A DNA stretch of 64,000 bases from Haliea sp. (GTDB lineage: Bacteria > Pseudomonadota > Gammaproteobacteria > Pseudomonadales > Halieaceae): positions 1 to 64,000 of the forward strand of contig JAHEBM010000016.1 in NCBI GenBank assembly GCA_024642245.1, in the 5' to 3' direction. Each line of letters begins with the position of its first letter. Within the stretch, counting starts at the first letter, position 1. The notes beneath the pieces are model-generated. The model was not told the DNA's origin. It worked only from the letters and a program-made list of their open reading frames with translations, and did not search any database. The translations under genes and the position numbers were made by a program. Below are positions 21,001 to 36,858 of the stretch, piece after piece.

Positions 21001-21339
21001 GCGGGCACATTATCGACCTCCGGGTCGGTAATTCCTGACGAGCGCCGCCCATCGCAGGATGGGCGGCGTTTTTTTTGCCCGCAATAGCACGGGCATGCCT
21101 GGCAGGACGGCATTTTTCCATCCACAGCCTGGCCAATCTGTACGGTTGTATGCCACTGCTGCCGGCGATAAAATAACCGACCCAATTTGGCGGGCTTGTC
21201 GTATATACCCAGAGTATTCCCGGGCGGGCGGGCGGGTTGTAGCCTGCCTCTACCGTCCGCGCGGCGCCGGATTGGCCTGCCCAGCGCGTTGCAGGCTTCA
21301 TCCCGGCCACACCATTCACCACAACAGACAGGAAGCACC
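21001..21339. other. 339-bp region upstream of the ethylmalonyl-CoA operon
   Basis: It contains the outer-membrane protein terminator (21043-21076), then about 260 bp that must hold the promoter of the mcd operon. I see no clear -35/-10 pair or operator. AGGAAG at 21330-21335 is the ribosome site of mcd. Confidence 0.5.
21043..21076 (+). terminator. Strong intrinsic terminator
   Basis: An 11-bp perfect stem CGCCGCCCATC/GATGGGCGGCG with a GCAG tetraloop is followed by eight T (21069-21076), 43 bp past the outer-membrane protein stop. Confidence 0.95.
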
Positions 21340-23010
21340 ATGACTGACGTCTCCCAAACAGGCGGGCAATTACTTGACCTGGCAGCGGATGTGCTGCAGC
21401 AAACCCAGACCCTGATCGACCGCTCACTCAGTGTCCTCAAGGAAAAAACGGTCGAAAACGGGCGCCTGTCCACCGAGAAACTGGATTCCTACCAGCTGGT
21501 TTCCTATGAATTATCACTGAGCTGGGCAGAGTGCTGCGCGGCCCGGTTTATGCTGGAACACTCCCGCCAGAGCAACGACGAATTTACCAACCGGCTGTGT
21601 GCGCTGTTCTGCGCCGAGGCTGTCTCCGCCGTTTGTGCCCGCCTGCGCGCCCGCCTTGCGGATTTCGAGCTGGCGGATGAGGATATCCGCGCGGTACTCA
21701 ATGGTGAGGCAGCCTCGGCGTTCCTCGCCAGCCAGCTCAGCGCTGCCAATATTGCGGCCATAGGCCAGGACGTGGTGGACCGGGGCCCCAACCTGGGCCC
21801 GGACCTGCTGGAAGACCGCTACACCATGATGCGCGACAGCTTCCACCGCTTTGCCGATGAGGTTGTCATGCCGCTGGCGGAATCTGTGCATCGTGAGGAC
21901 CTGATCATTCCCGAGGCCATCCTTGGACCACTCAAGGAAATGGGGGTATTTGGCCTGTCCATTCCCGAGAGTTATGGCGGACTCCAGGAGGACGACAAGG
22001 AAGACACCCTGGGCATGATCATCGTTACGGAAGAACTGTCCCGGGGCTCGCTGGGCGCCGCAGGCAGCCTGATCACCCGCCCGGAAATCCTGGCCCGGGC
22101 ACTGCTCAAGGGCGGTACGCAGGAGCAAAAGCAGCACTGGCTGCCACAACTGGCCGTCGGTGAACCCCTGTGCGCCGTGGCGGTGACTGAACCCAACTAC
22201 GGCTCCGATGTTGCCGGTGTCAAACTCAAGGCGACGCCAACCGAGGGCGGCTGGCTGCTGAACGGCGCCAAGACCTGGTGCACCTTCGGTGGCAAGGCCG
22301 GCGTGCTGATGGTGCTGGCCAGGACCAACCCGGATCCCGCCGCGGGACACCGGGGCCTGTCCATGTTCCTTGTGGAAAAACCCAGCAGCGACGGCCACGA
22401 ATTCGAAGTCACCCCCCAAACGGGTGGCAAGCTGACCGGCCGCGCCATCTCTACGCTCGGCTACCGTGGCATGCACTCCTACGAGTTGTTCTTTGACGAT
22501 TTTTTCGTGCCGGCCAGTAACATGATGGGCGGGGCGGAGGGCGAGGGCCGCGGGTTTTACCTGGCGATGGCCGGCTTTGCCGGCGGCCGTATCCAGACCG
22601 CGGGACGTGCGGTGGGCGTGATGCGCGCCGCCTTCGAAAAATCCATTTCCTATTCGAAAGAGCGGGTGGTATTCAAACACGCCATCGGCGACTACCAGCT
22701 CACGCAGGTCAAACTGGCCCGCATGGCAGCCCACCTGGCGGCATGTCGCCAGATCACCTACGGCGTGGCGCGCCTGATGGATGAAGGCAAGGGCGACATG
22801 GAGGCCAGTGGCGCAAAATTGTTTACCTGCAAGACAGCGGAGTGGGTCACCCGCGAAGCCCTGCAAATCCATGGCGGCATGGGCTATGCCGAGGAAGTCC
22901 CCGTCAGCCGCTACTTCGTCGATGCGCGAGTGTTGTCGATTTTCGAGGGCGCGGAAGAAACCCTGGCGCTCAAGGTAATCACCCGTTCACTGGTAGAAAA
23001 CGCAGCCTGA
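21340..23010 (+). CDS. mcd: Methylsuccinyl-CoA dehydrogenase (acyl-CoA dehydrogenase family)
   Basis: FAD enzyme expected to oxidise (2S)-methylsuccinyl-CoA to mesaconyl-CoA in the ethylmalonyl-CoA pathway. The 556-aa protein has an extra helical N-terminal domain (about residues 1-150) ahead of a full acyl-CoA dehydrogenase fold (about 160-550). Methylsuccinyl-CoA dehydrogenase is distinguished from ordinary acyl-CoA dehydrogenases by such an extension. The flavin/substrate segment AVTEPNYGSDVAG and the catalytic-loop FEGAEETLAL are visible. ATG 21340 follows AGGAAG. It is first in a five-gene operon and 10 bp from mch. Assignment rests on the extension plus the operon partners. Confidence 0.85.
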   Translation: MTDVSQTGGQLLDLAADVLQQTQTLIDRSLSVLKEKTVENGRLSTEKLDSYQLVSYELSLSWAECCAARFMLEHSRQSNDEFTNRLCALFCAEAVSAVCARLRARLADFELADEDIRAVLNGEAASAFLASQLSAANIAAIGQDVVDRGPNLGPDLLEDRYTMMRDSFHRFADEVVMPLAESVHREDLIIPEAILGPLKEMGVFGLSIPESYGGLQEDDKEDTLGMIIVTEELSRGSLGAAGSLITRPEILARALLKGGTQEQKQHWLPQLAVGEPLCAVAVTEPNYGSDVAGVKLKATPTEGGWLLNGAKTWCTFGGKAGVLMVLARTNPDPAAGHRGLSMFLVEKPSSDGHEFEVTPQTGGKLTGRAISTLGYRGMHSYELFFDDFFVPASNMMGGAEGEGRGFYLAMAGFAGGRIQTAGRAVGVMRAAFEKSISYSKERVVFKHAIGDYQLTQVKLARMAAHLAACRQITYGVARLMDEGKGDMEASGAKLFTCKTAEWVTREALQIHGGMGYAEEVPVSRYFVDARVLSIFEGAEETLALKVITRSLVENAA

Positions 23011-23020
23011 GGACCCGAAC

Positions 23021-24193
23021 ATGGCATTTTCCCTGCAACTGCCCCCCCAGCCGGAACTGGCTGCGGACGTCCCCGTGGACCTGGCGCGCGTACGCCAGCC
23101 GCAATACGGTCGCTACCTGGATGAACTCGAACCCGGCCAGGTGTTCGAGCACCCCCGCGGTTTTACCTTCGACCGCAGCAATATGCTGGATTTCGCCCGT
23201 ACCTTCATGCAGTCCAACCCGCTGTACCTGAACCTGCAGTACGCCACGGCCCAGGGGTTCCGGGACCTGCTGGCCAGCCCGCAGATGGTCTTTAACGTCA
23301 CACTGTCGCTGGGCGTGCAGAACGACTCGGAAAAAGCTATTGCCAACCTGGGCTATTACCAGGTGCAGTTTCTGCAAGCGGTCTACCCCGGGGATACCCT
23401 GCGGGCTTTCACCAAGGTACTGGAGCGCAAGGACCGGGGCCCGGACAAGCCGGGCATTGCCCGCATCCGCACCGTGGGCGTCAACCAGGACAACCAGGTG
23501 GTGCTGCAGTACGAACGCAAGATCATGGTGGCCTGGCGCGGCGAACGCCTGCCCACCACACCGGCGCCGGAGGTCACGGTCGCCTTTCCGGGTGAAGACG
23601 CGCCGGCGGTATCGCTGCCGCTTGGTGCCGGCGTTTTAGCGCCCGGACTGACGGGTCCCAACACCTACGCCGAGGATTTCAGCCCCGGCGATATCATCGT
23701 GCACGCCAACGGTCGCACTATCACCGAAGAGCATATGGCGCTCACCTACCTGGTGGGCAACAGCCACCCCCTGCACTTCGACCGTATTTTCTCCAGCGGG
23801 CTGTCCGGCAAGATGAGTGGCGAGCCTATCGTGTACGGCGGCCTGGTATTTGCCTGGCTTGACGGCCTCGCCAGTCGCGACGTGAGTGAGCACGCGATCT
23901 GGGAGCTGGGATTCACTGAGGGCTACCACACCCAGCCCGCCTTTGCCGGGGACACCGTGGGCGCACTGAGCCGCATTCTGGCCGTGGAAAACGTGCCCGG
24001 CGCCGACGGTTACGCGCTGGTGACCATGCAGCTGATCGGCGTGAAAAATAGTTCCGCCGCTGCCGCGCTGGAGCAGTACGGCGCCGACCTGTTCATCAAG
24101 GAAGACAGCAAACGCGAGCTTGGCAAGGACAAGATTCCCGCCAAAATCTTCGAAATCGAGCGGCGACTGCTGATAAAGCGTCGCCCGGCCTGA
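23021..24193 (+). CDS. mch: Mesaconyl-CoA hydratase (double hotdog MaoC family)
   Basis: Predicted to hydrate mesaconyl-CoA to beta-methylmalyl-CoA. The 390-aa protein has two hotdog domains (about residues 30-180 and 215-370). The first carries IANLGYYQVQFLQAVYPGDT, which resembles the Rhodobacter enzyme segment ANLGYADCRFLAPVYPGDT as I recall it. The second carries the HFDRIF and FAGDTVGA hydratase segments. ATG 23021 follows GAGGA. It lies 10 bp after mcd and 10 bp before ecm. Confidence 0.85.
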   Translation: MAFSLQLPPQPELAADVPVDLARVRQPQYGRYLDELEPGQVFEHPRGFTFDRSNMLDFARTFMQSNPLYLNLQYATAQGFRDLLASPQMVFNVTLSLGVQNDSEKAIANLGYYQVQFLQAVYPGDTLRAFTKVLERKDRGPDKPGIARIRTVGVNQDNQVVLQYERKIMVAWRGERLPTTPAPEVTVAFPGEDAPAVSLPLGAGVLAPGLTGPNTYAEDFSPGDIIVHANGRTITEEHMALTYLVGNSHPLHFDRIFSSGLSGKMSGEPIVYGGLVFAWLDGLASRDVSEHAIWELGFTEGYHTQPAFAGDTVGALSRILAVENVPGADGYALVTMQLIGVKNSSAAAALEQYGADLFIKEDSKRELGKDKIPAKIFEIERRLLIKRRPA

Positions 24194-26209: not shown

Positions 26210-27205
26210 GTGGAGCAGCCAGCACTCACAGCGGACCCTGCCCGACTGGCCACAGCGGTGCGTCGCGGTGAGCGCCGGGCCCTGGCCGAGGCGCTCAACC
26301 TGCTGGATGACCGGCGCCCGGCATCCCGTCGCCTCGCGGCGGATTTTCTCCGCCACCTGCAGGAAGGCCAGCCGGGTGATCCCGGCCACCTGATCGGGAT
26401 GACCGGGCCACCGGGCGCCGGAAAATCGACGCTCACGGCTGCGCTCATCGCTGTATGGCGGCGGCGCGGACTGAGGGTGGGAGTCCTCGCAGTGGACCCC
26501 TCCAGCCCGATCAGCGGCGGCGCCCTGCTAGGGGATCGCCTGCGAATGAAAACCAGTGCCGATGACGATGGCGTATTTATCCGCTCCCTGGCCTGTCGCG
26601 GTGAGTTCGGCGGCCTTAGCGCCGAGGTCTGGCCGATGAGCCTGGTGATGCTGGCGGCCTTCGACGTTGCGATGATAGAGACCGTTGGGGTAGGCCAGCG
26701 GGAGATCGATATCTCCCGGATGTGCGACACGACCTGTTTCGTCGCCCAGCCCGGCTCCGGCGACAGCGTGCAGTTTCTCAAGGCGGGTATTCTCGAGGTA
26801 CCCCACGTCCTGGTGGTAAACAAGGAGGACATGGGCGCCGTCGCGCGGCGCACACTCTCGGAACTGGGTACCGCCCTGGGCCGCGCTCATACCGACGGCA
26901 ACTGGGAGGTGCCCGTGTTGTCCGCCAGCGCCACCGCCGGCACCGGTATCGACGCGCTCGCCGATGCACTGACCCGGCACCGGGAAGTACTCGGGGCAGG
27001 CGACCGGCTGCGGGCACGGCGCCGAAGGTACCAGGCCCACTGGATATTGAAGCGCCTGCAAGAGGAATTCGGCAGTCACGGTGTCGGGCAATTAGGCGGC
27101 GAACAGGCCGTACTGCAACAACTGGCAAGCCGCGATACATCACTGTTTGAGCAGCTCGAGAGCCTCAGGCAAACACTTTTACAACCAGGAGGTAAGCATG
27201 CGTAG
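26210..27205 (+). CDS. meaB: MeaB-type mutase chaperone GTPase (ecm-linked)
   Basis: G3E-family GTPase of the MeaB/ArgK type, which loads and protects adenosylcobalamin on acyl-CoA mutases. The 331-aa protein has P-loop GPPGAGKST, the switch region [20 protein letters not shown] and the base-recognition [10 protein letters not shown] 26210 lies 8 bp after the ecm stop, so it most likely serves Ecm. It is distinct in sequence from the second MeaB at 28664-29623, which sits next to methylmalonyl-CoA mutase. Its 3' end overlaps mcl by 8 bp. Confidence 0.92.
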
Positions 27206-28247
27206 CCCTAGAGATTTCTTCAAGCCACTGGCGCTGGGAGCGCCGGCACCACTGCGCGATATTCCCGTGCGCCCGTCGCGGATGATTCATTTTTTCGATC
27301 CCAGCAACCCGAAGATGGCGGAAAAGGCACCCGCGATCGCCGCCAAGGTGGATATCCTCCTGGGCAATATGGAGGACGCGGTCGCGATCGACAATAAAGA
27401 AGCTGCCCGTGAGGGCCTGATCAGCATCGCCCGGGACAATGACTTTGGCGACACCCAGCTATGGACCCGGGTAAACAGCCTCGACAGCCCCTGGTTCCTC
27501 GATGATGTGACCCGCATCGTCAGCGAGGTAGGCGACAAGATCGATGTCATCATGCTGCCCAAGGTACAGGGACCCTGGGACATTCACTACGCCGACCAGC
27601 TGATAGCCCAACTCGAAGCACGCGCCGGCCTGAAAAAACCGATTCTCCTGCACTGCATCCTCGAAACCGCGCTGGGAGTCGCGAACGTCGAGGAGATCGC
27701 CAATGCCAGCCCCCGCATCCAGGGCATGAGCCTGGGGCCGGCAGACCTGGCTGCCTCGCGCCGGATGAAAACCACCCGCATTGGCGGCGGCCACCCGGGC
27801 TACCTCGTGCGCAATGACCCGGACCCGGCGAACCCCGAAGCCGCACGCGGTACCCATGCACAGGACCTGTGGCATTACACCATTGGCCGCATGGTGGACG
27901 CCTGCGTGGGCGTGGGCGCGCTGCCTTTCTATGGTCCCTTCGGGGCGATAGACGACCCCCTGGCCTGCGAAGACCAGTTCCGCAATGCCTTCCTCATGGG
28001 CTGTGTCGGTGCCTGGTCCCTGCACCCCAGCCAGATCGACATCGCCAAAAATGTATTCAGCCCGCCGGCGGACGAGGTGGTATGGGCAAAACGCGTACTG
28101 GAAGCCCTGCCCGACGGCAGCGGCGCGGTCATGGTGGATGGCAAGATGCAGGATGATGCGTCCTGGAAACAGTGCAAGGTAATGGTCGACCTGGCTCGAC
28201 TGATTGCCGACAAGGACCCGGTGTACAAGCAGCTCTACGGATTCTGA
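27198..28247 (+). CDS. mcl1: L-malyl-CoA/beta-methylmalyl-CoA lyase (CitE-like)
   Basis: HpcH/HpaI aldolase-family Mg2+ enzyme expected to cleave beta-methylmalyl-CoA to glyoxylate and propionyl-CoA, and to condense or cleave malyl-CoA. At 349 aa it keeps the metal ligands Glu156 (ILETALG) and Asp183 (LGPADLAAS), the arginine after WTRVNS and the SLHPSQI-like C-terminal segment (WSLHPSQID). It is slightly longer than the Rhodobacter enzyme. ATG 27198 has a perfect AGGAGG 6 nt upstream and overlaps meaB by 8 bp, indicating translational coupling. Confidence 0.85.
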
Positions 28248-29668: not shown

Positions 29669-31825
29669 TCAACCCTGGGCTGCATTTACCGCGTCGAGCA
29701 CTTCCCTGGCGCAAACCGGGATTGGAGTTCCCGGCCCGAAGATGCATTTAACACCTGCCTGGTAGAGGAAGTCGTAATCCTGCCTGGGAATAACCCCCCC
29801 GGCGATGACGACAATTTCCTGCGCGCCCTGTTTCCTGAGTTCTTCCACCAGCTGCGGCACCAGCGTCTTGTGGCCCGCCGCGAGCGAGGAGGCGCCCACC
29901 ACGTGCACGTCGTTCTCAATAGCCTGGCGAGCCACTTCCTCGGGGGTGGAAAACATCGGCGAAAGGTCGATATCAAAACCGACATCGGCAAACGCAGTGG
30001 CCACCACTTTGGCACCGCGGTCATGGCCGTCCTGGCCCATCTTGCACACCAGCATACGCGGGCGCCGGCCATGCTTCGCAACGAAAGCGTCGATGTCCTT
30101 GCTGATGCCCTGCCAGTTCTCATCCTGCCCGAAGGCAGAACCATAGACACCGGAAACAGTCTGGGCCTGGGCGTTGAAACGTCCGAATTCTCGTTCCATG
30201 GCGAAGGATATCTCCCCTACGGTGGCGCGCCGGCGGGTGGCCTCGATGGCAAGCTCCAGCAGGTTGCCCTGGCCACTGACCGCGCTGCGGTATATGTCCT
30301 CGAGTATAGCCTCTACCGCAGACTCGTCGCGAGCCGCGCGGATGCTGGCCAGGCGAGCCAGCTGGGAATCGCGCACCGCATCGTTGTCGATCTGCAGGAT
30401 GTCCACCTCATCCTCTTTCTCCATTTTGTACTTGTTGACGCCCACGATGACGTCTTCACCACGATCGATACGCGCCTGCTTCCGGGCGGCAGCCTCCTCG
30501 ATGCGCAGCTTGGGCATACCGGTTTCGATGGCCTTGGCCATGCCGCCGGCCTCCTCGACTTCCTCGATCAGTGCCCAGGCCTTGTCTGCCATGTCCTGGG
30601 TCAGGCTCTCCATCATGTAGGAGCCGCCCCACGGGTCGACGACCTTGGTGATGCCCGTTTCCTCCTGTATGACCAGCTGGGTGTTACGGGCGATACGCGA
30701 GGAGAAGGCCGAGGGCAGGGCAATGGCTTCATCGAGCGCATTGGTGTGCAGCGACTGCGTGCCGCCAAACACCGCTGCCATGGCCTCGATAGTCGTGCGT
30801 ACCACGTTGTTGTAGGGGTCCTGCTCGGTCAGGGACCAGCCGGAGGTCTGGCTGTGGGTGCGCAGCATTGAGCTCTTCGGGTTTTTCGGGTTGAACTCGC
30901 TGACGATACGAGCCCACAGCAGGCGCGCCGCCCGCATCTTGGCGATCTCCATGTAGAAATTCATGCCGATGCCCCAGAAGAAGGACAGGCGTGGCGCGAA
31001 GTCGTCGATATCCAGGCCGGCCGCAATTGCCGTGCGAATGTATTCCTTGCCGTCCGCCAGGGTGTAGGCCAGCTCCAGCGCGGCGTTCGCCCCCGCTTCC
31101 TGTATGTGGTAGCCGGAGATCGATATCGTGTTGAAGCGCGGCATGTGGCTGGAGCAATAGGCGATGATATCGCCGATGATCTTCATGCTGGGCTTGGGCG
31201 GGTAGATATAGGTATTGCGCACCATGAATTCTTTCAGGATGTCGTTCTGGATCGTACCGTTCAGTTCGGCCTGGGGCACTCCCTGCTCTTCAGCAGCCAC
31301 GATATAACCGGCCAGTACCGGCAAAACGGCACCGTTCATCGTCATGGAGACGGAGACCTTGTCCAGCGGTATGCCGTCGAACAGGATTTTCATATCCTCG
31401 ACGGAGTCAATCGCCACCCCTGCCTTGCCCACATCCCCTGCAACCCGCGGGTGATCGGAGTCATAACCCCGGTGGGTGGCAAGGTCGAACGCCACGGAAA
31501 CACCCTGGCCGCCGGCAGCCAGGGCCTTGCGGTAAAAAGCGTTGGACTCCTCGGCGGTGGAGAAACCGGCGTACTGGCGGATCGTCCAGGGGCGACCGGT
31601 ATACATGGTGGCCTGGGGGCCGCGAATATACGGTGACATGCCGGGCATGGTGTCGGTGTAGGAAAGGTCCGCTACATCGGCCGCCGTATAAAGGGGTTTG
31701 ACGGGAATATCCTCAGCCGTCTGCCATATAAGGTCGTCCGGACTGCCGCCCTTCATCTGCTTGCTGGCCAGTTCGCGCCAGGCTTGCGGCGTTGCCTTGC
31801 TCTTGTCGTAAATCTTGTCGCTCAT
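29669..31825 (-). CDS. scpA: Methylmalonyl-CoA mutase
   Basis: Adenosylcobalamin enzyme interconverting (2R)-methylmalonyl-CoA and succinyl-CoA. At 718 aa from ATG 31825 (GAGGA 8 nt upstream) it is a single-chain, homodimer-type mutase. The long N-terminal arm includes [22 protein letters not shown]-type residues (about 57-80), the barrel has [15 protein letters not shown], and the cobalamin domain has DGHDRGA with His about residue 601. It acts downstream of the carboxylase and epimerase in the same operon to bring propionyl-CoA into the citric acid cycle. Confidence 0.96.
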
Positions 31826-31847
31826 TGGCAAAATCCTCGCAACGCGC

Positions 31848-32261
31848 TCAATGATGATCGTCAGCGGGCTGGTTGATCTCAATCAGCACGCCGTCGCAAC
31901 TCTTGGGGTGAATAAAAATAACCCTGGAATTATGCGCCCCGGGGGTGGGGGCATCGGCCAGGAACTGGTAGCCCTTGGCCCTCAGCCGCGCTACGTCCTC
32001 GTCGATATTGTCGGAACGGAAACACAGGTGGTGCAGGCCGCCGCCTTTCTTCTCAAGGTAAGCGGCCACGGGACCCTTGCCCTGTAGCGGGTGGACAAGC
32101 TCGATATTGGTCGGGGGCAGGGGGAAAAACGCCGCGCTGGTCTGTGCTTCCAGCACGTCTTCGGTACCGCCCATGGGCAGGCCGAAATCTTCCATAAAGC
32201 GCTTGATCGCTTTTTCCAGGTCGGGCACCGCGATAGCGATGTGGTCCAGGGCGGTTATCAT
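31848..32261 (-). CDS. mce: Methylmalonyl-CoA epimerase
   Basis: A VOC-fold metalloenzyme of 137 aa that interconverts the 2R and 2S forms of methylmalonyl-CoA. Two beta-alpha-beta repeats are visible, with metal-ligand positions in LDHIAIAV (His7), GLHHLCF and the closing GVLIEIN (Glu). In Rhodobacter the equivalent epimerase also acts on ethylmalonyl-CoA, so this single copy may serve both mutases in the window. It is 14 bp after the biotin carboxylase gene and 22 bp before scpA. Confidence 0.93.
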
Positions 32262-32275
32262 GTGTTTTCTCCCTA

Positions 32276-35092
32276 CTACAACTGCTGCAGAAACTGGCCG
32301 GTGGCTTCGCGCCGACGTGCGGCGACTTCCTCAGGCGATTCAATGACGGGGCGTTCGTCCGGGGTGATCTTGAATATCGCTTGCCCCTTGTGAATGATCA
32401 TACCGTCCGCTTCCACCAGCACTTTCTCCACGGTGCCGGAAAACGGCGCATAGTACTTGTTGAACATCTTCATGACCTCGATGATGAACAGGGGGTCACC
32501 CGCATTGAAATGGTCGCCCTCTTTCACATACACATCGTGTTCCGGCGTTTCGCGGGAGTAGAACATGCCACCACTTTCCGCCAGGATCTCATCCGACTTG
32601 GCCACCGGCGGCGGCACCAGCACCTTGGCCATGGCCGCCTGCAGTTGCGGGTCGTTCAGGCGCGGCGGAATGTGCACCGTCAGGTCCGGGTTGACACCCA
32701 GTTCATAAAATCCTGTGGCCTCGGCAATGCTGGGGAGAACGGCGATGATGTCCACGCCGGCCTGGAAGCCCAGGTGGGCGCCGCGCACCCGGGCCCACAT
32801 AGCGCTGTCCATGCCCGCAGGCGCCTCTTCAGAATCCAGCGTGGAGCACAGCTCCACCCAGTCCCCCGCATCCAGGCGGTTGTTCAGTTCGGCATAAAAC
32901 GCTATGGCTTCCTGTATTATCCGGTTGTCGTGGTCCCAGATAATGGTCGCCGCGGCGTCTGCCTCGTCCTTCTCGTCATCCATATTGAGAAAATGATAGG
33001 TGTCGGCAAGCAGTTCCAGCGGGTTTTCGTTCCAGCTGATCTTGCCGTCGATCACGGTGTAGCAGTCGCGGTTGACACTGAGCCATCCGCTGAGGATATG
33101 CGGCTCTCCGAGCAGGAACCGCAGTGGTCGCAGCAGCAGCGATTCTTTCAGCTGCAGCGCCTCTGACAAGGCGTGCGCGGCCTCACCTTCAGCCCGGGCC
33201 AGCGCCGCCTTGCCGATGGCCGCGTAAGCGAAGTTGAGATCCAGGTTGTTCGCGTGGCGCTTGAGTTCACCGACTGCCGTGAGGTAGGGCACGATAAAGC
33301 GGGTAGTAGGTCGCGCGTTGACGTTCTGCGCGATAAACCAGTTGACCAGCCCGTAGTGAAACTCGAGGTTGGTCGCCAGGTCCTGGCCCCGCATCCGGGT
33401 CTGGCGGATGGTCTCGGCCATCTGCTGGTAGGTTGCCATACGGCTGGAGCCCACCGTCAGCAGCAGGGCGATATTGGAATCGTAGGCCCCCGCCAGGGTG
33501 TACTTCATAAAAACATCGGTGTCCGGGTTGTGCAGGCTGATGCCCTGGTCATCGCGGATTTCGCCGTTGCAGGCGTCAGTCCAGGATTCAATCACCCCAC
33601 CGGCATGGGGTTGCAGCGCCTGGTTGGTGGCATTGAGGCGCGCCTCCACGCTGTCATTGTTGCGCACGACGCGTTCCGGCTTCGGCAGTTTTTCGCCGTG
33701 GGCAGCCAGCAGCACCATCGCTTCCACCAGGGACTCCACCTCAAAGTGCTCTTCGGGTTTTTCGGGGTTAGTGAATTTCAGCGCGTAACAAAGCTCGGTG
33801 ACGCGGTGCTCCACCTGGATGCGGGTGTTCATCTCCATAAAGAAGTGCTTGTCACGGTCGACGATACATTCAAAGGTCGACACGGAATCCAGCCCGACCG
33901 CTTCACCAAACCGCGCCGCCTCTTCTTCCATGGCCTGCAGGGTTGCCAGGTCCTGACGCAGCACCCGCGCTTCCTCCACCTGGCGGCCGCGCTCGGCCTC
34001 CTCGATTGCCGCCTGCAGGGACTCCACGGTGACGGACACCTCAAGCAGCTTTTGCTCGTGCATCTGCAGCGAGCAATCGCGGCCGCCCATGCTCATGCTC
34101 CACACGCCGTTGCCAATCACCTGGATTTCCTGGTGGCGGGTGGTTTCGATATTCAGTTCGACCAGTACGTTCTTGTTGTCACCGACACCGGTGGTTTTCA
34201 CCTCGTTGAGGATCTCCCGCACCATCTCGGCCGTGCGGGCGGAGTCACCAATACCCAGGATGCGCTGGCCCTTCCCGCCGCCGCCGCTGATCGCTTTCAG
34301 GCGCACCCGGTTTTCCGGGTAATCCGCCGCCATTTTCTTAACGGCCTCGGTCAGGGTGTCGCAGAGTTCGGCGACGGTATAGAGGTCGATTCCCTTGTCA
34401 TAGGACGCCGCCAGCACGATATCGGCCTTGTCCTCTATGGTAACGGAGCTGTCGTCCAGCGTGGCGTCATCCACAGCCAGCTTGTGCTGGGCCACCAGGG
34501 CTTTCAGGGCGGCCGCGTCGGGATGTTTTTTCAGCAGCGTCAACGCGGTACCGTTATCGATACCCGGAGTAACCGAAACGCCCGTTTTCAACGCCGTGCG
34601 CTTGGCTTCGTCCTTCAGACCCGCATCGTGCACAGTGCGGGAGCAGGGGCCTATGAAATTCAGGCCGGCCGCTTCCATGGCAGCCACCATCATCTCGTCT
34701 TCCGCCATAAAACCGTACCCGGCGAAGATCGAGTTGTAATTATTGTCCCGCGCTATATTGATGATCTGCCGGATGCGCGCCTCACGCTCTTCCTTGTTGG
34801 CGCCGCTGTAATCGGGCACGCGGTGAACCCTGTCGGGGTCGGTCAGGGAGCGCAACTCGGGCGCCAGTGCATTGCGATAGACAATGGAGTCTTTCTCCGA
34901 CAACAGGATGCCGAAATGCTCGATACCCATTTCGCCGAAGACGTCCATCGCCTCCTTGCGGATGGGACCCCGGCAAATAATCAGGGGGCGCACATGGGTA
35001 CAGTCGAACTGGCTCACCCAGGCGCTGCGGTTCTTACCCAGCTTGCGGTCGCGGTGGATGAGCGGGTTATGCAGGTAATATTCGTTGGACAC
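32276..35092 (-). CDS. Large biotin carboxylase-BCCP subunit of an acyl-CoA carboxylase
   Basis: ATP-dependent biotin carboxylase joined to its own biotinyl domain. The N-terminal half (about 30-500) is a divergent ATP-grasp biotin carboxylase: LIICRGPIRKEAM, GYGFMAEDEMM, the glycine loop KAISGGGGKGQR and EMNTRIQVEHRVTE. About 300 residues of unfamiliar sequence follow (about 520-820). The C-terminal biotinyl domain has EVMKMFN with Lys875 as the biotin site. At 938 aa it is much longer than standard alpha subunits (about 650-670), and the insertions near residues 160-240 and 350-400 are atypical. GTG 35092 follows AGAGGAA. It should pair with the carboxyltransferase encoded 32 bp upstream. 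Confidence 0.85.
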   Translation of the reverse strand: MSNEYYLHNPLIHRDRKLGKNRSAWVSQFDCTHVRPLIICRGPIRKEAMDVFGEMGIEHFGILLSEKDSIVYRNALAPELRSLTDPDRVHRVPDYSGANKEEREARIRQIINIARDNNYNSIFAGYGFMAEDEMMVAAMEAAGLNFIGPCSRTVHDAGLKDEAKRTALKTGVSVTPGIDNGTALTLLKKHPDAAALKALVAQHKLAVDDATLDDSSVTIEDKADIVLAASYDKGIDLYTVAELCDTLTEAVKKMAADYPENRVRLKAISGGGGKGQRILGIGDSARTAEMVREILNEVKTTGVGDNKNVLVELNIETTRHQEIQVIGNGVWSMSMGGRDCSLQMHEQKLLEVSVTVESLQAAIEEAERGRQVEEARVLRQDLATLQAMEEEAARFGEAVGLDSVSTFECIVDRDKHFFMEMNTRIQVEHRVTELCYALKFTNPEKPEEHFEVESLVEAMVLLAAHGEKLPKPERVVRNNDSVEARLNATNQALQPHAGGVIESWTDACNGEIRDDQGISLHNPDTDVFMKYTLAGAYDSNIALLLTVGSSRMATYQQMAETIRQTRMRGQDLATNLEFHYGLVNWFIAQNVNARPTTRFIVPYLTAVGELKRHANNLDLNFAYAAIGKAALARAEGEAAHALSEALQLKESLLLRPLRFLLGEPHILSGWLSVNRDCYTVIDGKISWNENPLELLADTYHFLNMDDEKDEADAAATIIWDHDNRIIQEAIAFYAELNNRLDAGDWVELCSTLDSEEAPAGMDSAMWARVRGAHLGFQAGVDIIAVLPSIAEATGFYELGVNPDLTVHIPPRLNDPQLQAAMAKVLVPPPVAKSDEILAESGGMFYSRETPEHDVYVKEGDHFNAGDPLFIIEVMKMFNKYYAPFSGTVEKVLVEADGMIIHKGQAIFKITPDERPVIESPEEVAARRREATGQFLQQL

Positions 35093-35124: not shown

Positions 35125-36858
35125 TCAATGGAATTCGCGCTGGACGGACTGCAGGGGTCCAGGCTGATAGCGGCGAAGGTAGAACGCCATATTTTCCGCC
35201 AGGACCTGGCGCAGCTCGGAGGGCATGACGATCTGGGAGATCGATCCCAGGCTGAGCGCCTCGTTCGGGTTCATCAGCTCGCGCTCGTAGCGCTTTGCCA
35301 ACTGGGCTTCCTCTGACTTGACCCAGTCCCTGACCAGCTCAGCCGCGGTTTCACCCGCCTGCTTTTCCGACAGGCCGGCGGCGACCTGGGCGGCGGTTTC
35401 CGCCTCGACCCGGGCGGCCACGGCGCCGCGAATCTTGCGCAACTCGTCCTTGTAAACGTACTCGACTCCCGCCGGCCCCATCACCGCCAGGCGAGTGGTA
35501 GGCAGGGCAATGACGAAGTCCGCACCCGTGGGAAAGCTGTTGAAAGCCGCATAGGCGCCGCCGTAGGCATTGCGCACGATTACCAGGAATCGCGGCGTAC
35601 GCAGGTCGACGATGGCGTCGAGCATGGCGCGCCCGGCCTGGACGATGCCCCCGCTTTCCTGCTCCTTACCGGGCAGGAAGCCGGTGGTATCCTCGAGGAA
35701 AATCACGGGAATGTTGTACAGGTTACAAAAGCGGATAAAGCGGGCGTTCTTGTAGGCAGCATCGATATCGACCTGCCCGGAGGCCACCGATGAATTGTTG
35801 GCGACAAAGCCGATAACATTGCCGCCCATACGCCCCAGCGCCGTTACCGTGTTACGGGCCCTGTCCGGCTGCAGTTCGAGGAAGTCGCCGTGGTCACACA
35901 GCTGCTGTATCAGGATGGTGACATCGATCGGGGTATTGAAACCGGTAGGGGAGTTAAAGGCTTTTTTCAGCAGGATATCGATATCCCAGGTCTTGCGGGT
36001 AATGGGGTCGGAGCTGGGCTGGTAGGGCGCCAGCTCACCGTTGTAACTGGGCAGGTAGTTGAGCAGCGCGCGCACCTTGCGCAGACCCGCCACCTCATCC
36101 TTCACCACGAAATCGGTCACGCCGCTCTTGCTGTGCACCGCGGGTCCACCCAGCTCGTCCGGGGTGACGTCTTCGCCCAGCACGGACTTCACCACACCGG
36201 GGCCGGTAAGGCCGAAAAACGTCTCGTTGGGCTGGATCAGGAAGCTGCCCTGGCGTGGCAGGTAGGAACCACCACCGGCGTTGAAGCCAAACATACACAT
36301 GATGCTGGGCACCACGCCACTGATCCTGCGCAGGGCGGCGAAGGCTTCCGCATAGCCATCGAGGCCGCCCACGCCGGCAGGGATATATGCGCCGGCACTG
36401 TCGTTGATGCCTACCACGGGAATTCGCTGGCGGGCCGCGAGTTCAAACAAACGGGCCAGTTTTTCGCCGTTGGTGGCATCCATGGAGCCTGCGCGGACGG
36501 TAAAATCGTGCCCGTACAGGGCCACATCGCGGCCATTGACCTTGATGATGGCGGTCACCAGGGAAGCGCCGTCCAGGTTCGGGCCCCAGTTCTGGTAGAG
36601 CACCGTGGGCTCGCCGTCACTGAGAAAGCGAATACGCTCCCAGATCGTCATGCGATTTTTCTGGTGCTGGCGCTGGATATTCTTTACGCCGGCGGTCACA
36701 TAGGGACGCTGTTGCAGTTCCCAGCCCGCTTTCAACGATTCCTCATAGGGTCCGGGTGTCGAGGCGATCTGCCCCGGGACCGTGAAAGCCTGCTCGTCCC
36801 GTTCAGCAAACGGGTTTTCCAGAGTCGCAATTACCCCTGCCGGGCTCTGTGCATTCAT
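35125..36858 (-). CDS. Acyl-CoA carboxyltransferase (propionyl-CoA carboxylase beta-like)
   Basis: A 577-aa carboxyltransferase with the tandem crotonase-like domains of PccB/AccD5. The N-terminal half has [20 protein letters not shown] and [16 protein letters not shown]; the C-terminal half has [12 protein letters not shown] and [13 protein letters not shown]. Its main role is probably propionyl-CoA to methylmalonyl-CoA, given the epimerase and mutase downstream. Ala437 replaces the Asp that follows GGAY in typical propionyl-CoA carboxylases, a position known to set acyl chain preference. It is the first gene of a six-gene minus-strand operon. Confidence 0.88.

Follow-up and report, generated by a model that had tools for sequence, protein, structure and literature searches.

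An ethylmalonyl-CoA module without crotonyl-CoA carboxylase/reductase beside a propionyl-CoA carboxylase operon in Haliea and related Gammaproteobacteria

The ethylmalonyl-CoA pathway with crotonyl-CoA carboxylase/reductase (Ccr) is known from Alphaproteobacteria. Ccr is treated as its defining entry enzyme, and in its textbook form the pathway is the sole route of acetate assimilation. The locus described here, in a window of 64,000 nucleotides from Haliea sp., raises the question of where the genes of this pathway obtain their substrate when no Ccr is found. A first-pass annotation of the same DNA pointed to the carboxyltransferase (CT) subunit of a neighbouring acyl-CoA carboxylase, which carries Ala in place of an Asp and was proposed to carboxylate butyryl-CoA, thereby providing a Ccr-independent entry. 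The main result of our analysis is that an ethylmalonyl-CoA module without Ccr recurs in this gammaproteobacterial group, mostly alongside isocitrate lyase; in the open-licence literature, as far as its accessible portions go, we found no description of such a module. The genes concerned are the following:

21340..23010, plus strand: (2S)-methylsuccinyl-CoA dehydrogenase (Msd), starting at an ATG within ORF 21187-23010; PDB 8ciw, 646 bits over query residues 68-606
23021..24193, plus strand: mesaconyl-CoA hydratase / beta-methylmalyl-CoA dehydratase (Mch), MaoC-like; PDB 4e3e, 134 bits, and 8hgn, 107.7 bits
24204..26201, plus strand: ethylmalonyl-CoA mutase (Ecm); 60-68% identity to Ecm of 58 Ccr-bearing genomes
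26210..27205, plus strand: second MeaB-type GTPase, adjoining Ecm; TIGR00750, 253 bits (cut-off 240.75)
27198..28247, plus strand: malyl-/beta-methylmalyl-CoA lyase (Mcl), starting at an ATG within ORF 27147-28247; PDB 4l7z, 505 bits, and 6kin, 500 bits
28664..29623, minus strand: MeaB GTPase of Mcm; NF006958, 480.9 bits (cut-off 329)
29669..31882, minus strand: methylmalonyl-CoA mutase (Mcm); NF006944, 1293.4 bits (cut-off 876)
31848..32261, minus strand: methylmalonyl-CoA epimerase (Epi); TIGR03081, 135.4 bits (cut-off 114.95)
32276..35092, minus strand: divergent biotin carboxylase and biotin carrier subunit (BC-BCCP), 938 aa, containing EVMKM
35125..36858, minus strand: carboxyltransferase (beta) subunit of a propionyl-CoA-type acyl-CoA carboxylase, 577 aa; from Pfam, NCBIfam, PDB and predicted fold
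35542..35562, minus strand: GGAYAAF motif of the CT; from the ORF reading and alignment A1
35548-35550, minus strand: codon of Ala437; from the sequence reading and alignment A1

The module on the plus strand converges on the minus-strand operon of the propionyl-CoA carboxylase (PCC). That every step after Ccr is present, as the first-pass annotation had stated, holds by family or structure match for Msd, Mch, Ecm, Mcl, Epi, the biotin carboxylase, Mcm and MeaB. Within the module the identification of Mcl is strong and that of Mch, at 134 bits, moderate and the weakest, although its position in the Msd-Mch-Ecm array helps. Of 102 columns that separate Ecm from Mcm (one residue throughout 29 Ccr-linked Ecm proteins, another in eight Mcm proteins), the window protein has the Ecm residue in 95. 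The proteins of the second Ccr-less group, clade B, match on average only 82 of these 102 columns, and their substrate is therefore less sure. The lyase in ORF 27147-28247 is far nearer to 4l7z and 6kin than to 4l9y (205 bits).

The CT itself matches Pfam Carboxyl_trans with 363.7 bits; its top NCBIfam model is mmdA (345.6 bits, under the cut-off of 998.8), and its top PDB matches are 1vrg, 1x0u and 6ybp. An AlphaFold2 model (pLDDT 75.7, with several weak loops below 50) is closest in fold to the PCC beta subunits 6ybp and 1vrg, and PccB of Streptomyces coelicolor and its D422 mutants are also among the fold matches. In alignment A1 with 11 Asp-type CTs, to which the protein is 36-38% identical, Ala437 falls in the column where all 11 carry the Asp of GGAYDVM; the CT reads GGAYAAF, as noted earlier. 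The residue equivalences for Ala437 are by sequence alignment, and on this basis it stands in the same column as the PccB-type Asp; D422 of S. coelicolor PccB is presumably that Asp, through the GGAYD motif of PccB. The number 422 is taken from the accessible part of PMC7835884. PCC of Methylorubrum extorquens (6ybp) has Asp at this position, and the proteins from Thermotoga (1vrg) and Sulfolobus (1x0u) have Ile. Because 1vrg was deposited as a PCC beta subunit, an Asp in the acyl pocket does not define the family strictly; the window protein has the domain, the fold and the operon of a PCC beta subunit, but not this Asp. F173 is kept, and judging from its distance to a conserved Tyr we take it to be the Phe that PMC5187497, in the part available, calls universal in CTs for acyl-CoAs of C4 or shorter. 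The CT thus has both residue features expected of a butyryl-CoA carboxylase, namely a non-acidic residue at the Asp position (A437) and, with F173, presumably the retained Phe. A second difference, absent from the earlier annotation, lies at residues 153-162, where the clade reads [10 protein letters not shown] (or AYVPAG) and Asp-type CTs read DSGGARIQEG. An AtuA-family gene (PF07287, 37036-38436) starts on the opposite strand, a short way upstream of the CT.

The surroundings of the CT are those of a methylmalonyl-CoA branch. Its partner, the 938-aa BC-BCCP protein, scores 178.7 bits, far under the NCBIfam cut-off of 965; EVMKM is presumably its biotinylation motif. The same divergent subunit adjoins the CT in relatives too, and the order CT-BC-Epi-Mcm-MeaB is conserved in the named relatives with or without Ecm (Mcm lies downstream of the CT in 69 of 80 named loci, and the remaining 11 loci are short or cut). 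Since this order is kept regardless of Ecm, the CT is best read, from gene context, as the propionyl-CoA carboxylase subunit of this marine lineage. The source genome contains four further CT-like proteins with 29-31% identity.

The absence of Ccr was followed from the source genome into its relatives. In the source genome, a MAG listed as 81% complete and related most closely, among named genomes, to MAGs of Haliea and Halioglobus, all 43 candidates were scored; TIGR01751 gave 22 matches, none of them above the cut-off of 378.55 bits, and the best reached 68.1 bits over model positions 139-253. The relatives carry more weight. Ecm is found in 14 of 194 genomes drawn from the order and Ccr in three, with a single genome (G397) in the overlap; the best candidates of a first look, at most nine per genome, were scored here, so that a very weak Ccr could escape. 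Whole-genome searches of the named relatives, for which 50 of the 80 named loci were used, gave Ecm in 18 and Ccr in one, Dasania sp. GY-MA-18. The coordinates of the Dasania Ccr are those of G397, i.e. the same genome accounts for the one Ccr among 14 Ecm-bearing genomes of the order draw and for the one among 18 named ones. Hence, 30 of the 31 distinct Ecm-bearing genomes from these two sets have no Ccr match. Eleven of the 13 Ccr-less ones in the order draw are listed as 94-100% complete, the other two being G340 (86%) and the source genome, and two (G300 and G336) are single contigs. As a control, 398 genomes were drawn from the phylum: Ecm occurs in 59, the source genome and 58 outside the order, and all 58 of the latter have Ccr above the cut-off, all of them being listed as 100% complete and thus unmatched in completeness to the order set. 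The difference (58/58 versus 1/14) has a Fisher p of 2e-13, uncorrected for shared ancestry; the Ecm thresholds were 1e-200 for the order draw and the named relatives and 1e-190 for the phylum draw. A Ccr gene elsewhere in the genome, which the earlier annotation named as a refutation of its hypothesis, was looked for and not found, and the argument from missing Ccr is stronger than its author knew.

Two genomes of the order draw, G284 and G389, possess a Ccr above the cut-off and no Ecm match at the threshold used. In Dasania (locus L175, the same genome as L133), which alone among the Ecm-bearing genomes of the set has Ccr, the genes for Msd, Ecm, MeaB and Ccr are consecutive, and the fetched 20 kb contain no Mch homologue.

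In most of these bacteria the module is probably not a stand-in for isocitrate lyase in acetate assimilation. The source genome encodes one isocitrate lyase (NF005074, 1064 bits, cut-off 446), and with this protein as query homologs were found in 61 of 63 genomes searched, including 29 of the 31 distinct Ecm-bearing ones. It is missing only in G396 and G470; G396, listed as 99% complete, has no PF00463 match either, so that at least one near-complete Ccr-less genome with Ecm seems to lack isocitrate lyase. A glyoxylate cycle is reported for all six Halieaceae strains in PMC10100682, in whose accessible text the words propionyl, methylmalonyl and crotonyl do not occur; the same holds for propionyl, methylmalonyl and ethylmalonyl in that of PMC6440738. 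According to gene content, most of the group probably has another path for acetate besides the Ecm module, and growth on acetate probably needs no substitute for Ccr.

Is the module then a relict? Intact reading frames and low dN/dS values speak against it. In six comparisons with relatives, dN/dS of Ecm ranges from 0.04 to 0.09, rough values because dS exceeds 1 in several pairs; a seventh pair gave no dS value, and no stops were found. Msd likewise has no stops against its relatives, with dN of 0.23-0.37 and dS of 1.3-2.1 in three of four comparisons, the fourth being without a value. These patterns indicate that Ecm is under purifying selection and that the module is maintained. A tree of 53 Ecm sequences (all 14 from the order draw, 10 of the 18 named and 29 of the 58 phylum matches) with one Mcm, built with a quick method and having a single long outgroup branch, places the Ccr-less proteins in two separate groups. 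One comprises the family of the source genome and two other families and is sister to Ccr-bearing proteins (support 89, not starred); the other (families f199 and f192) is sister to the Ccr-bearing Dasania protein (support 99, starred).

Gene order around Ecm was compared in 13 regions fetched from the order-draw relatives. Msd is present in all 13, a MeaB-type gene in 12 (in the exception, L169, the contig ends within Ecm), Mch in 12 (all except Dasania), and a close Mcl homologue, with at least 62% identity, in four. Seven clade B regions (L173, L174 and L176-L180), in which no Mcl homologue was found within the fetched sequence, have instead related genes immediately preceding Msd; they belong to DUF6986 (PF22484, 605 bits, scored for L174 only) and may encode the lyase of these modules. 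In 11 of the 17 Ccr-less named genomes with Ecm, the fetched locus with the PCC operon also includes at least one module gene that faces this operon. The neighbourhood of the modules was also considered as a place for a common gene replacing Ccr: the ten annotated neighbour proteins of the relatives' module regions (a DUF6986 protein, an AMP-binding ligase, two hydrolases, HtpG, glycerol-3-phosphate dehydrogenase, YgiQ, FadB, a CitE-like lyase and a FemAB-like protein) include neither a carboxylase nor an enoyl-CoA reductase.

The distribution of the alanine speaks against an adaptation to the loss of Ccr, which we reject. All 118 related CT sequences read have it, in GGAYAAF or its ASY, ASF, AAY and ASW variants; for 86 of these the genome has no Ecm match, and Dasania, with both Ecm and Ccr, has Ala too. 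The 118 rows consist of 68 from the order draw and 50 named ones, some genomes being counted twice (Dasania certainly, as L054 and L133, and a few others judging by identical CTs). A CT match was found in 75 genomes of the order draw; 69 of these CTs were examined, one of which (L232) gave no motif, and G322 and G444 (stop or split) and G311, G348, G405 and G429 (39-42% identity) were left out. In a search of the class, 21 distant CTs (39-41% identical) read GGAYDVM, and L016 (65% identical) reads GGAYAAF. Because Ala-type CTs are common in genomes without Ecm, there is no signal of co-adaptation. Ala at the position of Asp422 in PccB is, from the alignments, an old feature of the CT clade, and the notion that it marks a special Ccr-independent enzyme finds no support.

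The residue two positions after Ala was a further candidate. In Ccr-less genomes, Phe or Trp occurs there in 11 of 13 with Ecm versus 26 of 53 without it in the order draw, and in 17 of 17 versus 6 of 32 among the named relatives. On a CT tree of 117 rows (without L054; 111 different sequences, quick method) Ecm presence changes seven times, and the six independent pairs, which have little power, show no association of Phe/Trp versus Tyr with Ecm. The raw counts are therefore explained by ancestry, and this candidate was set aside.

What the residue does in characterized enzymes is context-dependent. In S. coelicolor, according to the accessible part of PMC7835884, the D422I exchange makes PccB promiscuous and allows butyryl-CoA, and I420D makes AccB propionyl-specific; an Asp-to-Ala exchange in PccB is said to bind butyryl-CoA in the available text of PMC5187497. 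On the other side stands the CT of T. fusca, which has Asp and nevertheless uses butyryl-CoA, and whose D427I exchange lowers butyryl-CoA carboxylation by about 80% (PMC7835884, same part). Residue 437 is thus not the sole determinant of acyl choice, and the argument from this residue is weak. A Ccr-independent entry fares better: it agrees with the missing Ccr in the order, with the control in the phylum and with a precedent for an acyl-CoA carboxylase that makes alkylmalonyl-CoA without Ccr (PMC5187497, as far as available), but the frequent isocitrate lyase reduces the need for an alternative entry to the module.

With no Ccr, the feedstock of the module must come from elsewhere. We consider butyryl-CoA carboxylated by the PCC of the conventional operon beside the module its most plausible source, a proposal with about as much for it as against it, and the same balance applies to PCC as the entry enzyme whether by dual function or by side activity. 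Use of butyryl-CoA by the CT is plausible from its residues. In this model, PCC with Epi, Mcm and MeaB would convert propionyl-CoA to succinyl-CoA, and butyryl-CoA from beta-oxidation would be a second substrate of the Ala-type enzyme, so that butyryl-CoA, HCO3- and ATP would yield (2S)-ethylmalonyl-CoA. Epi would turn this into the (2R) form on which Ecm proceeds; Msd, Mch, Ecm, MeaB and Mcl would then produce propionyl-CoA and glyoxylate, the former being absorbed by the PCC operon and the latter by glyoxylate metabolism. The module would serve for salvage or for assimilation in parallel with other routes, and not as the only path for acetate. The sequences show the gene content, the lack of a Ccr match, the conservation, the Ala throughout the clade and the isocitrate lyase, whereas the butyryl-CoA activity, the direction, the stereochemistry and the physiological role are inferred. 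A bolder formulation, which we put forward tentatively and with somewhat less confidence, is an ATP-driven ethylmalonyl-CoA pathway in which an Ala-type PCC acting on both butyryl-CoA and propionyl-CoA replaces Ccr in two lineages of the order and leads butyryl-CoA from fatty-acid oxidation to succinyl-CoA and glyoxylate, parallel to the glyoxylate shunt.

Several other explanations have to be weighed against this. The module could serve metabolite repair, in which PCC or some other carboxylase forms ethylmalonyl-CoA from butyryl-CoA as an undesired by-product and the module salvages it at small flux; regarding the source of ethylmalonyl-CoA this overlaps with the explanation preferred here. 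The wide occurrence of isocitrate lyase fits, as does the situation in mammals, where ethylmalonyl-CoA formed as a carboxylase side product is cleared by a dedicated repair enzyme (PMC6717113, in the part available). Yet several genes look costly compared with one decarboxylase, and we consider repair rather unlikely. It is a little less probable still that the CT is an ordinary PCC only and that ethylmalonyl-CoA is made by a reductive carboxylase that has escaped recognition or by one of the genome's other acyl-CoA carboxylases. The conservation of CT and operon in genomes without Ecm, the four other CT-like proteins and the many weak matches to the Ccr model in the source genome would suit this explanation; against it, none of the weak matches approaches the Ccr cut-off, and the lack of a carboxylase or enoyl-CoA reductase among the ten annotated neighbours counts weakly in the same direction.

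The module might also be fed by external methylsuccinate, mesaconate or another C5 acid, with Ecm being incidental or acting on imported ethylmalonate. The lyase type nearest to the window protein, that of 4l7z and 6kin, presumably has broad malyl-/citramalyl-CoA activity, which would be in line with such a feed; the presence of Ecm in every module region (all of which were found through Ecm) and its strong purifying selection make it improbable. As for a Ccr hidden in the unassembled part of the source MAG, the incompleteness of this assembly and the 17 Ccr-less named genomes, which have no listed completeness and are mostly MAGs by title, leave it only a very slight chance: a mere assembly gap is rejected by the 30 of 31 genomes without Ccr and by the near-complete genomes among them, and for the group as a whole the two single-contig genomes already speak against it. 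Beyond these, there is room for yet another, unrecognised source of ethylmalonyl-CoA.

Compared with the Ccr-type ethylmalonyl-CoA pathway, the locus has the same Epi, Ecm, Msd, Mch and Mcl, followed by PCC, Epi and Mcm to succinyl-CoA; it differs in that no Ccr was found, isocitrate lyase is present and the module adjoins a divergent Ala-type PCC operon. The CT shares with PCC beta subunits such as 6ybp of M. extorquens the Carboxyl_trans fold, the operon with Epi and Mcm, the GGAY motif and the Phe (F173), whereas it has Ala for Asp, SAGAYIPAG for SGGARIQEG, and a long divergent BC-BCCP partner. A non-acidic residue at the position is shared with S. coelicolor AccB (Ile420) and stambomycin MccB (Ala). 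For AccB, MccB and T. fusca AcCCB, all actinobacterial, carboxylation of butyryl-CoA or longer acyl-CoAs is reported in the accessible parts of the literature; there, MccB is a Ccr-independent alkylmalonyl-CoA enzyme that feeds a polyketide synthase, and it has Gly where the window CT keeps Phe.

A downstream module that is under selection without Ccr, and mostly alongside isocitrate lyase, implies either another entry reaction or another function of the module in these bacteria. Ecm or Msd alone are also unsafe markers for Ccr-based CO2 fixation.
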